This document shows, piece by piece, positions 24,713-27,628 of a DNA stretch of 64,000 nt. The stretch lies in the NCBI RefSeq assembly GCF_030580935.1, contig NZ_JAUQOM010000002.1:62001-126000 (forward strand). Direction: 5' to 3'. The notes beneath the pieces are model-generated. The model saw only the letters and a program-made list of their open reading frames with translations. It was not told the origin of the DNA and searched no databases. The DNA is from Sphingobium cyanobacteriorum. GTDB lineage: Bacteria; Pseudomonadota; Alphaproteobacteria; Sphingomonadales; Sphingomonadaceae. The translations under genes and the position numbers were made by a program. The stretch's first letter is position 1, and every line of letters starts with the position of its first letter.

Positions 24713-25111
24713 ATGGGTATCCTCGGCAAGATCTTCACCTGGTGGGATGGCGCGACCATCGGCACTGCGCTCTTCACCTCTCGCAAGGGCACGAAGGTGG
24801 GGGAGGACCATCAGGGCAATGTCTATTATCAGGGCGGCACCGATCCCAATGGCCTGACGCGCCGCTGGGTGATCTATAATGGCGCGAACGACGCCAGCCG
24901 CGTGCCGGCCGAATGGCATGGCTGGCTGCACCATTCGATCGAGGGGGCACCGGAAAGTTTCCTGCCGCCGCCGCGTATCTGGGAAAGGGATTTTACCCCC
25001 AACGCCACTGGCACCGTCAACGCCTATCGTCCGTCCGGCGCGCTCGAAAAGGGCGGTCAGCGCCAGAGGGCGACCGGCGACTATGAGGCGTGGAGCCCCG
25101 ACGCGGCATGA
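24713..25111 (+). CDS. NDUFA12-family complex I accessory subunit
   Basis: A 132-residue protein homologous to mitochondrial NDUFA12/B17.2, an accessory subunit of NADH:ubiquinone oxidoreductase found also in alphaproteobacteria. Landmarks are FTWWDGATIGTALFTSRKG, GNVYYQGG, RRWVIYNGANDASRVPAEWH and GWLHH, followed by a Pro-rich C-terminal tail. The ATG at 24713 was chosen because upstream codons are not protein-like. Its last base pairs overlap the DUF2155 start (ATGA). This gene next to DUF2155 and aat is a typical alphaproteobacterial grouping. Confidence 0.9.
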   Translation: MGILGKIFTWWDGATIGTALFTSRKGTKVGEDHQGNVYYQGGTDPNGLTRRWVIYNGANDASRVPAEWHGWLHHSIEGAPESFLPPPRIWERDFTPNATGTVNAYRPSGALEKGGQRQRATGDYEAWSPDAA

Positions 25112-25764
25112 TCCGGCGTCCGGCGGGGGATGTTTCGTCGATCCTGCTGCATCTGCCCCTTCTGTCCTGTGCGCTGGCGCTGGCCGCGTGCGGCAGGAAT
25201 GATGTGCCTGCCGGCAATCTGACCGGGCCGGTCAAGGTCGAAGGCGCGCCGATCCGGTCCGCCGCCGGTGGCGCTTTGCCCGGCACGCCCATGGCGGAGC
25301 GGACGGCGGTGATCGGCCTGCTCAACAAACGCAACGGCTTGACCCGCGACCTGACGATGAAGCCGGGTGAAGCGTTGCGCGCGGGTGACGCGATCGTGCG
25401 CTTGCAGGCCTGCGAAACCACCGCGCCATGGGAAAATGTGCAGGATACCGGCGCCTTCGTGCAGTTGGACGTGCGCTCCAGCGCCGATGGCAAATGGCGC
25501 CGCGCCTTTTCCGGCTGGCTGTTCCGCGACCGGCCCGACCGCAATGTGGTTCAGCACCCGATCTATGATGTCTGGGTCAGGAGCTGCGCGATGGCCTGGC
25601 CCGAAACCGGGCCGGATACGGTGAAGCTGGGGGCCAAGGGCGAACCTGTCGCCGCCGGGGCCCGCGCCAGCGGATCGAACGCCAGTTCCGCCGCTGCGCC
25701 CGAACCCGACAGCGAAGCCCCCGCGCCCAGCGCCACGCCCGCAACCGCGCCGCCCAGCAACTGA
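25108..25764 (+). CDS. DUF2155 lipoprotein
   Basis: A 218-residue protein with a signal sequence ending in ALAACGRN (lipobox Cys28). The DUF2155 core spans about residues 64-168, including VIGLLNKRNGLTRDL, ACETTAPWENVQDTGAFV, GWLFRDRPDRNVVQHP and YDVWVRSCA. The last 50 residues are Ala/Pro/Ser-rich and low-complexity. The gene overlaps aat tail to tail by 202 bases, including the end of the conserved core. DUF2155 proteins are envelope proteins of unknown function, often encoded next to NDUFA12. Confidence 0.85.
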   Translation: MIRRPAGDVSSILLHLPLLSCALALAACGRNDVPAGNLTGPVKVEGAPIRSAAGGALPGTPMAERTAVIGLLNKRNGLTRDLTMKPGEALRAGDAIVRLQACETTAPWENVQDTGAFVQLDVRSSADGKWRRAFSGWLFRDRPDRNVVQHPIYDVWVRSCAMAWPETGPDTVKLGAKGEPVAAGARASGSNASSAAAPEPDSEAPAPSATPATAPPSN

Positions 25765-26309
25765 AGATAGGCGCGCTGGCTGATCTCCACCGCGCCCATG
25801 CTGCGCAGATGATCGGTCATGAACTGGCAGTCCAGCAAGGTGAAGCCGGCGTAACGCATCCGCGCCACCAGCCAGGCCAGTGCCACCTTCGACGCATCGG
25901 TGCGGCGCGACACCATCGATTCGCCAAAGAAGGCGCGGCCGAGCGCGACGCCATACAGGCCGCCGACCAGTTCGTCCCCCTCCCATATCTCGATGGAATG
26001 GGCGAAACCGGCGTCGTGCAAATGGCCATAGGCGCGCTCGATCGCATGGTTGATCCAGGTGGAGGGGCGGTCCTGCGCCGATTGCGCGCAGAGCGCCAGG
26101 ATGCGGCCGAAGGCGCGGTTGGCGGTGACGCGGAAGCGATCACGGCGGATGACCTTGGCCAGCGAATGGGACAGGTGAAAAGCGTCCAGTGGCAGGATCG
26201 CCCGCTGCTTCGGCTCGACCCAATAGACCTCCTCCGCCTCGCGATCGTCGGCCATGGGGAATACGCCGATGGAATAGGCCTGAAGCAGGACGAGCGGATC
26301 GATCATCAT
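25563..26309 (-). CDS. aat: leucyl/phenylalanyl-tRNA-protein transferase
   Basis: A 248-residue enzyme that attaches Leu or Phe to N-terminal Lys/Arg of proteins, creating N-degrons for ClpS/ClpAP. The core (residues 1-186) has LLQAYSIGVFPMA, VYWVEPKQRAILP, ESMVSRRTDASKVALAWLV and LLDCQFMTDHLRSMGAVEI. The remaining 62 residues are an Ala/Gly/Ser/Pro-rich tail encoded wholly antisense to the DUF2155 gene, beyond the usual end of the family. Two ATG codons in tandem (26309 and 26306) are possible starts; no strong ribosome-binding site was seen. Confidence 0.9.
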   Translation of the reverse strand: MMIDPLVLLQAYSIGVFPMADDREAEEVYWVEPKQRAILPLDAFHLSHSLAKVIRRDRFRVTANRAFGRILALCAQSAQDRPSTWINHAIERAYGHLHDAGFAHSIEIWEGDELVGGLYGVALGRAFFGESMVSRRTDASKVALAWLVARMRYAGFTLLDCQFMTDHLRSMGAVEISQRAYLQLLGGAVAGVALGAGASLSGSGAAAELAFDPLARAPAATGSPLAPSFTVSGPVSGQAIAQLLTQTS

Positions 26310-26407: not shown

Positions 26408-27628
26408 ATGAAAAGCCTGTCCCTGGCCCTGCTGCCACTCCTCCTCGCCGCGCTGCCCGCCCAGGCCGCGCCCGATCCCCATGCCGCGCGGATCGCCAGG
26501 ATATTGAAGGCCACGCCCCTGATCGACGGCCATAATGACTGGCCCGAAGCCTTGGCCGAAAAGGCGAAGGAGGCCCGCTGGACCATGGACCTGCGCCGGC
26601 TCGATCCCGCCCGCTATCATAGCGACATCGACCGGCTGCGCGCGGGCGGGGTCGGCGGGCAATTCTGGTCGGTCTGGGTATCGGCCGACCTGTCGCCCCT
26701 GCAACAGGTGCGCGACACGATCGAGCAGATCGACCTGGCCCATAGTTTCGCGCGCCGCTACCCGCGCGATTTCGCCTTCGTCACCACCGCCGCGCAGGTC
26801 CGCGCCGCGCACAGGGCGGGCCGGATCGCGTCGCTGATCGGGGTGGAGGGCGGCGGCCAGATCGACGGCAGCCTGGCGGTGCTGCGCGCCTATCATGACC
26901 TTGGCGCATCCTATCTGACCCTGACCCACAGCCGGACGACCGACTGGGCCGACAGCGCGACCGACGACCCGCGACATGACGGCCTGACCCCGTTCGGGGA
27001 AAGCGTGGTGACGGAACTCAACCGGCTGGGGATGCTGGTGGACCTCAGCCATGTCAGCGAGGCGACGATGCTGGACGCGCTGCGGGTCAGCCGGGCGCCG
27101 GTGATCTTCTCCCACTCCAGCGCGCGGGCGCTGTGCGACAGCCCGCGCAACGTTTCCGACGCCGTGCTGCAACAGGTGGCGGCGAATGGCGGCGTGGTGA
27201 TGGTCAATTATGCGCCGCAATATGTGTCGGAAGCACGCCGCGTCTGGAGCGCCAATCGCAGCGCGGAGATCGCCCGCTACAATGCGCCGCCCTTTGGCGG
27301 CCTCCATATCGGCGATCCGGCGGCGGCGAAGCGGGCGCTGGCGGCGTGGGAGCAGGCGAACCCGGAGCCGGTGGTGACGCTGGCGCAGGTCGCCGACCAT
27401 ATCGACCATATCGCCAAAGTGGCCGGCGTCGACCATGTGGGGCTGGGCAGCGACTATGACGGCGTGGGATCGTTGCCGCAGGGACTGGGCGGGGTCGACA
27501 CCTATCCTGCCCTGCTCGCCGAACTGATGCGACGCGGCTGGAGCGACGCCAACGTCGCGAAACTGGCCGGCGAGAATATATTGCGCGTGATGACGGCGGC
27601 CGAAAAAGTAGCGGCCGGGATGCGGTGA
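26408..27628 (+). CDS. membrane dipeptidase (peptidase M19)
   Basis: A 406-residue secreted zinc dipeptidase of the renal-dipeptidase family. A cleavable leader (MKSLSLALLPLLLAALPAQA) precedes LIDGHNDWPEAL, the first metal-binding HxD. VEGGGQIDGSLAVL (bridging Glu), LVDLSHVSEATM, VIFSHSSARAL and GLGSDYDGV follow in family order. It hydrolyses dipeptides, including those with a C-terminal D-residue in some members. The start at 26408 gives the signal peptide; upstream in-frame codons overlap aat's complement and are rejected. Confidence 0.92.
   Translation: MKSLSLALLPLLLAALPAQAAPDPHAARIARILKATPLIDGHNDWPEALAEKAKEARWTMDLRRLDPARYHSDIDRLRAGGVGGQFWSVWVSADLSPLQQVRDTIEQIDLAHSFARRYPRDFAFVTTAAQVRAAHRAGRIASLIGVEGGGQIDGSLAVLRAYHDLGASYLTLTHSRTTDWADSATDDPRHDGLTPFGESVVTELNRLGMLVDLSHVSEATMLDALRVSRAPVIFSHSSARALCDSPRNVSDAVLQQVAANGGVVMVNYAPQYVSEARRVWSANRSAEIARYNAPPFGGLHIGDPAAAKRALAAWEQANPEPVVTLAQVADHIDHIAKVAGVDHVGLGSDYDGVGSLPQGLGGVDTYPALLAELMRRGWSDANVAKLAGENILRVMTAAEKVAAGMR

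Follow-up and report, generated by a model that had tools for sequence, protein, structure and literature searches.

The aat gene and the DUF2155 gene of Sphingobium cyanobacteriorum, which converge and share their 3' ends, are best regarded as an old, phase-locked convergent overlap that has grown in frame, in which residues ~186-211 of the transferase Aat are dual-coded and residues 219-232 together with the terminal TQTS are either imposed by the DUF2155 protein or expendable; we give this reading a probability of about 0.75. At the overlapping loci compared, the stop of Aat is, with one exception, set by a conserved Tyr codon of DUF2155, and the stop of DUF2155 in turn faces a codon of Aat for Tyr, Gln or His; according to the proposed mechanism, in Sphingomonadaceae the segment between the two conserved cores would have expanded by indels in multiples of three, both proteins gaining tails from the same DNA, and frameshifts would have been removed since they spoil one or both tails.

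The window, that is, the whole stretch of 64,000 nucleotides analysed, carries the following features around the overlap; the separated clade is the group of genomes, described below, in which the two genes lie apart.

24713..25111, plus strand: NDUFA12-family gene, 5' of the DUF2155 gene on the same strand (PF05071, 78.5 bits)
25108..25764, plus strand: gene of the DUF2155 protein, 218 aa (PF09923, 84.3 bits)
25306..25587, plus strand: Pfam domain of DUF2155, residues 67-160 (Pfam match)
25561..25566, plus strand: ATC TAT, Ile152-Tyr153 of DUF2155; the C and the TA that meet over the codon border read TAG, the Aat stop, on the minus strand
25563-25764, both strands: tail-to-tail overlap of aat and DUF2155, 202 nt (sequence and translations)
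25565..25563, minus strand: aat stop codon TAG (sequence)
25575..25601, minus strand: Aat residues 237-245, predicted helix (AlphaFold model)
25597..25626, plus strand: DUF2155 extension WPETGPDTVK, residues 164-173, opposite Aat residues 228-238
25614..25676, minus strand: Aat residues 212-232 (pLDDT below 50 for 215-232)
25614-25655, minus strand: Aat residues 219-232, with no counterpart in the separated clade
25677..25754, minus strand: Aat residues 186-211, low-complexity stretch and ..AELAF motif (pLDDT, constraint, separated clade)
25762..25764, plus strand: DUF2155 stop TGA, the reverse complement of the T and CA that meet in CTT CAG (Leu182-Gln183 of Aat)
25768-25770, plus strand: second in-frame DUF2155 stop, TAG, opposite Ala180-Tyr181 of Aat
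26309..25563, minus strand: aat, leucyl/phenylalanyl-tRNA-protein transferase, 248 aa (PF03588, 227.5 bits)

The two proteins and their shared segment

The overlap spans residues 183-248 of Aat and one base of residue 182, in a register that sets third codon position against third and first against second, i.e., phase (123:213) in the notation of PMC2174442. The Pfam matches run from residue 7 to residue 177 of Aat (cut-off 22.7 bits; profile positions 3-171 of 171) and from residue 67 to residue 160 of DUF2155 (cut-off 27 bits; profile positions 1-89 of 89), and from these limits it follows that the overlap comprises the entire Aat tail together with the last residues of the DUF2155 domain. 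Both the 202-base convergent overlap reported by the first-pass annotation and its statement that the Aat extension is antisense to DUF2155, including the end of the conserved core of the latter, are thereby borne out. Tyr181 of Aat, opposite the second DUF2155 stop, is invariant in the 70-row Aat alignment.

Proteins of the Aat family (PF03588) transfer Leu or Phe onto N-terminal Lys or Arg. The predicted structure of the window's Aat has the fold of the E. coli L/F-transferase (2dps_A: Z 25.3, rmsd 1.9, 200 aligned residues, 41% identity), and the best solved matches to the model are all entries of that enzyme (Z 24.6-25.3, 198-203 aligned). In the AlphaFold model of Aat, computed with 70 rows, mean pLDDT is 89.9, with block means of 83 and 87 over residues 191-210, values below 50 for residues 215-232, and 66 and 77 in the last two blocks; two helices are predicted in the tail, at 205-211 and 237-245. 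The model suggests that the Aat fold probably extends past residue 186, near which the core had been thought to end: that earlier boundary is only partly right, and by constraint, pLDDT and the separated clade the residues up to ~211 behave as Aat. In the model of DUF2155 (64 rows), the last predicted strand, 153-161, starts at Tyr153, the residue that supplies the Aat stop; from residue 161 onward the block means are 52-75.

As to the neighbouring genes, the NDUFA12-family gene and the DUF2155 gene share the ATGA at window positions 25108-25111 (start/stop overlap), and translational coupling of both genes may therefore be possible; in PMC9226611, NDUFA12, mlaD and DUF2155 of Thioclava electrotropha are reported in one operon and DUF2155 as non-essential. 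On the other strand, a membrane dipeptidase gene (Peptidase_M19, 374.9 bits; window 26408-27628) adjoins the 5' end of aat.

Spread, phase and stop sites of the overlap

Among the 385 genomes of the class, searches with the two Pfam families gave matches to Aat in 277 and to DUF2155 in 345; among the 196 genomes of the order, the figures were 191 and 189. The loci compared are the best-scoring 120 of the 277 class genomes and the best-scoring 60 of the 191 order genomes with an Aat match; they were chosen by the Aat match alone, and overlaps were counted from 31 nt up. The DUF2155 gene lies within the fetched stretch at 98 of the 120 class and 58 of the 60 order loci, always convergent with aat (a few class stretches end at contig ends, where a missing DUF2155 is no proof of absence). 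Both genes are kept with their 3' ends overlapping by at least 31 nt at 78/120 class and 57/60 order loci, hence at 135 of these 180 best-scoring loci, and at least one overlapping locus occurs in 46 of the 65 class families sampled in this way. The remaining 45 loci comprise 24 with no DUF2155 match in the stretch, 18 with convergent genes that do not overlap and three with a 4-nt overlap; several of their Aats end 13-16 residues past the core, so those lineages can do without most of the tail. The three 4-nt overlaps (L125, L129 and L178, all of the class) have the phase of the long ones and are possible intermediates between separate and overlapping genes.

Within the genus, the window's Aat protein was matched in 93 of 94 genomes and the DUF2155 family likewise in 93, one genome (G063) having neither; the same register, compared by eye from the coordinates, is found in 90 of the 93 genomes carrying both families, the window's own included. 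A sequencing error that removed an earlier stop is ruled out by the recurrence of the register in these 90 genomes and at 135 of the 180 best-scoring class and order loci. A set of 80 named loci, a few of them neither Sphingobium nor Sphingomonas, was retrieved with patterns that include the tail peptide; being biased towards the tail, it was left out of the frequencies. The 243 overlapping loci considered below exclude two repeats of the window (L001 and L002), and the genus and named sets among them share species.

At all 243 overlapping loci (at least 31 nt) the gap between the two cores is 2 mod 3, with 46 distinct gaps ranging from 68 to 338 nt; the 18 convergent pairs without overlap are distributed over phases 0, 1 and 2 as 8, 4 and 6, with no lock. 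Traced over a tree of 181 Aat cores, the 136 overlapping rows require 63 or more changes of the gap, which always stayed 2 mod 3, although a frameshifted pair may stop overlapping and so leave the count, a possible drop-out that weakens the argument: the lock links overlap with phase and does not tell how frequent frameshifts were. The explanation that we propose for the lock is that a frameshift would cost either tail. Since amino-acid constraint already offers such a reason, there is less need for a regulatory antisense unit, in which the paired 3' transcript ends would control each other by analogy with arfA/mscL of E. coli, a precedent described in PMC10070815. Between 24900 and 26500, neither terminator-like nor promoter-like sites were detected, and with no intrinsic terminator there the two transcripts may run into each other; yet the RNA of the 202-nt overlap folds only slightly better than shuffled sequences (z -1.65) and many lineages do without the overlap (45/180 best-scoring loci), and we consider such a unit improbable.

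At the best-scoring class and order loci, a core gap of 74 nt and an overlap of 64 nt are the most frequent values; in the window's family the gaps are 92-338 nt, and growth of the intervening segment in steps of three has brought overlaps to as much as 337 nt. Long gaps in other families (149 nt in L162, 158 in L211 and 152 in L279) indicate that this segment grew more than once. The idea that the length of the Aat tail would track the distance to DUF2155 proved correct, as at overlapping loci the tail measures (gap-2)/3 + 9 residues, with a single locus, L276, at +13; the length of the DUF2155 tail, in turn, correlates with the core gap with a Spearman coefficient of 0.91 (243 loci).

The site at which Aat stops is equally constant. 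It falls on one column of DUF2155 at 78/78 class and 56/57 order overlapping loci of the best-scoring sample, and on the same column at 78/78 named and 29/29 genus overlapping loci. The column consists of a codon with C or T as its third base, in most cases for Val or Ile, and next to it the conserved Tyr of H-P-[IV]-Y-D-V-W; Aat stops opposite this Tyr because a pyrimidine-ending codon and a TAT or TAC after it give TAG or TAA when the opposite strand is read. Two contexts yield an antisense stop in this phase: a TA- codon (Tyr) preceded by T or C, and a CA- codon (His, Gln) preceded by T. Wherever a conserved Tyr follows a codon that ends in a pyrimidine, an antisense stop is thus built in. 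In the exceptional L276, DUF2155 reads H-P-L-F-D, with Phe for Tyr, and Aat is four codons longer, its stop being given by a T and the CA of the Gln codon that follows it; this run-on is what the dependence on Tyr predicts. The fixed stop site also causes the Aat end to resemble QSxTQTS, the mirror of Y-D-V-W-V-x-x-C of DUF2155: among the best-scoring 180, the Aat C-terminus is exactly QTS at 93 of the 135 overlapping class and order loci, as against 0 of the other 45. In one non-overlapping Aat (L199), AQTS has 14 residues beyond it; this is perhaps the former end of an overlap, its stop having disappeared once the two genes had moved apart. On the other side, the DUF2155 stop is opposite an Aat Tyr at 47/78 class, 32/57 order, 43/78 named and 0/29 genus loci, the other DUF2155 stops facing Gln or His of Aat.

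These observations bear on the origin of the long tail, which the first-pass annotation had attributed to the loss of a stop codon in this lineage, extending Aat over DUF2155 by overprinting. The tail is indeed long, of low complexity and opposite DUF2155; nevertheless, the DUF2155 Tyr at which Aat stops is shared with distant alphaproteobacteria whose tails have only 33 residues, no earlier ancestral stop emerged (134 of the 135 overlapping loci among the best-scoring 180 share the column), the register is common to 90/93 genus genomes, and tail length varies with the distance between the cores and not with the position of the stop. Overprinting by stop loss is thus highly improbable; what grew is the stretch separating the two cores.

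The history of the overlap itself is less straightforward. On the Aat-core tree the overlap label changes at least 27 times, 95 of the 178 inner branches are open and starred branches force only 4 changes; with so many changes and open branches, a single ancestral origin was not established from this tree. The changes would suit a repeated independent origin, whereby the neighbouring genes drift together and Aat runs to the first antisense stop, by chance the Tyr codon, the more so since, given the DUF2155 protein, few stops precede that codon in this phase. Independent origins should, however, have used all three phases, and 243/243 overlapping loci use only one; moreover, in PMC2174442 this phase is the rarest of the three, accounting for 18% of 1218 convergent overlaps of at least 5 nt in 58 species. 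We regard repeated origin as quite unlikely and infer an ancestral overlap in a large part of Alphaproteobacteria, followed by many losses.

Selection on the two frames and the separated clade

The mere presence of an open frame is of little value as evidence. In synonymous shuffles that keep the DUF2155 protein and local codon usage fixed, the Aat frame is open in 95-99% on average, so that an open antisense frame is nearly free and proves little, and openness was rejected as proof of Aat coding; the non-chance part of the overlap is its fixed phase and fixed stop site. In the reverse shuffle the DUF2155 frame is open in 72-86% given the Aat protein, a figure conditional on the overlap. The DUF2155 tails are poor in the residues whose codons could interrupt Aat: Gln, His and Tyr account for 39 of 2634 residues at the 135 overlapping loci and for 31 of 500 at 35 others (p=1e-8; p=1e-5 without L311), where L293, L295 and L297 are left out and the three 4-nt overlaps are counted as non-overlapping; with so few of these codons, keeping the Aat frame open costs next to nothing.

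The constraint acting on each frame was assessed by a wobble test, in which transversions are counted by degeneracy in either frame at sites where the neighbouring first-two-base pairs are unchanged; the 243 loci represent 225 distinct sequences (90 and 135 by set), and the sphingomonad set consists of 45 disjoint pairs drawn from the genus and named loci, for the most part of Sphingobium and Sphingomonas. The controls behave as expected of single-coded DNA: where only Aat is coded, transversions occur at 43/1073 of its 2-fold sites and 405/2014 of its 4-fold sites (both with a 4-fold mirror), and where only DUF2155 is coded the Aat degeneracy has no effect (88/468 versus 197/976, p=0.57). Within the overlap of the sphingomonad set, the pooled test gives p=0.025 for the Aat frame, and the division into a linker and the last 20 Aat codons was made after this pooled result was known. 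Before the last 20 codons (window residues 183-228), sites 4-fold in both frames show transversions at 111/526, those 2-fold in Aat only at 7/104 (p=0.0003; ratio 0.32, 95% CI 0.11-0.58) and those 2-fold in DUF2155 only at 16/167 (p=0.0005; ratio 0.45, 0.26-0.66). Over the last 20 codons of the same 45 pairs, no constraint was detected in the Aat frame (24/104 versus 52/209, p=0.78), and DUF2155 is constrained (10/164 versus 52/209, p=6e-7). Dual coding in the genus and named loci is thus found before the last 20 Aat codons, and in these last 20 only DUF2155 is held. Over the last 20 codons of 64 class and order pairs, DUF2155 is strongly constrained (1/92 versus 22/56) and Aat less so (15/78 versus 22/56, p=0.018), so that treating the extreme end as a passenger may be valid for sphingomonads only; to judge from these counts, the end of Aat looks less restrained in sphingomonads than in their relatives.

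Extended to the whole tail, the same idea would make it a pure passenger, with only DUF2155 under selection and Aat reading on until it meets the Tyr codon. The 95-99% of shuffles with an open Aat frame, the unconstrained last 20 codons of the sphingomonad set and the existence of short Aats without a tail are all in keeping with it; the Aat-frame constraint in the linker (7/104 versus 111/526), the pLDDT of 83-87 for residues 191-210 and the retention of the linker after separation of the genes are not, and the idea seems unlikely.

This separation is observed in three of the 93 genus genomes (G003, G048 and G082, compared by eye), in which aat and DUF2155 are far apart or on other contigs. 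The three Aat cores (L292; L294, identical with L075; L296, identical with L076) are 85-89% identical to one another and at most 80% to 14 other rows compared, which indicates that the separation was probably one event. Their Aats keep the linker up to A-x-F and end in T-G-[RE]-D-V-x-x-L-L where overlapping ones have S-G-x-x-I-x-Q-L-L; the pattern [ST]G-x-x-[IV]-x-x-L-L, which corresponds to the helix 237-245 of the window, therefore recurs in the separated clade. They lack QTS and 14 residues (219-232 of the window, opposite DUF2155 ~169-183), and D+E+K+R make up 0.23, 0.24 and 0.19 of their tails, whereas 43 overlapping tails (L032-L074, mostly Sphingobium) have a median of 0.07 and do not exceed 0.17. 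The Ala/Gly/Ser/Pro-rich character noted for the tail is thus real, but in part imposed by the overlap, seeing that charged residues rise from a median of 7% to 19-24% once the genes are apart.

The separated DUF2155 proteins also retain their tail, with the motifs WPETGPDTLK, WPETGPETIK and WPQTGPDTLK; hence each protein kept its own tail after separation. Opposite these DUF2155 genes the old Aat frame is still open over 66 (L293), 61 (L295) and 170 (L297) codons; the relict frame of L293 ends in SGPVSGHVIRHSFTHTS and is matched by similarity alone (query 187-248, E 2.5e-4). In L295 the Ile codon before the stop-giving Tyr has become ATA (mirror TAT) and the antisense stop is gone, as is expected because no Aat depends on it after separation. 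The separated genomes most likely descend from overlapping ancestors. Relatives without the overlap and with an equally long, conserved Aat tail, which had been named as evidence against an origin of the tail by overprinting, do exist in L292, L294 and L296; with such ancestors most likely behind them, they show that Aat retains the tail, not that tail and overlap are unrelated. The DUF2155 gene of L293 (1758-2375, genome G048) is itself tail to tail with a SURF1-family gene (992-1765; PF02104, 181.8 bits), their 3' ends overlapping by 8 nt.

Taken together, the constraint tests and the separated clade point to a division of the tail under the phase-locked, in-frame growing overlap proposed here. 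Aat residues ~186-211 appear to be genuine Aat sequence, dual-coded with the opposite DUF2155 tail; residues 219-232 and the terminal TQTS appear to be dictated by DUF2155 or expendable. The helix 237-245 recurs after separation, yet lies in the section of the tail where no Aat-frame constraint was detected in sphingomonads.

Significance and comparison with known systems

The overlap provides a clean system for the study of how two unrelated proteins evolve on one stretch of DNA, and the natural separation of the pair shows what each protein keeps once free; it also explains the otherwise odd C-terminal QTS motif of Aat, and it suggests a simple rule, namely that, where third codon positions face each other, a conserved Tyr preceded by a pyrimidine-ending codon supplies a ready-made antisense stop. 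A bolder reading, which we put forward tentatively and think somewhat less probable than not, is that the pair is among the oldest dual-coded antisense protein segments in bacteria, arising by one ancestral event, with the Aat stop fixed within a conserved Tyr codon of DUF2155 (and often vice versa), C-termini that have co-evolved since early in the class and an overlap that went in sphingomonads from 64 to up to 337 nt, the tails of both proteins being under selection there. None of the matches listed in the literature searched reports the aat/DUF2155 overlap in its title or in the start of its abstract. Convergent overlap is a known kind of arrangement; what is new here is its spread, its phase lock, the fixed stop site and the division of the segment between the proteins.

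Among known cases, the long convergent overlaps (above 60 nt) surveyed by Palleja et al. 2008 (PMC2478687) are, like aat/DUF2155, tail-to-tail pairs sharing more than 60 nt; according to that paper, 124 of 178 were classed as misannotations and the other 54, possibly real, are mostly conserved in very close species only, unlike the register described here, which occurs in 46 of the 65 sampled class families (best-scoring loci). The (123:213) overlaps of PMC2174442 likewise set third codon position against third; that study gives phase frequencies, whereas aat/DUF2155 shows a stop site fixed by a Tyr codon and in-frame growth of the overlap.

The mscL and arfA genes of Enterobacteriaceae (PMC10070815) are convergent neighbours with overlapping 3' ends, as aat and DUF2155 are, and in that work the species form overlapping, proximal and distant clusters; there the distance between the genes is not conserved and regulation by antisense RNA is reported, whereas here it is the register and the stop site that are conserved. 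Finally, in ano, laoB and asa of E. coli O157:H7, as in aat/DUF2155, both strands of one stretch are coding; those three are described as novel genes lying over an annotated gene, whereas aat and DUF2155 are two widespread, unrelated genes that share their 3' ends.
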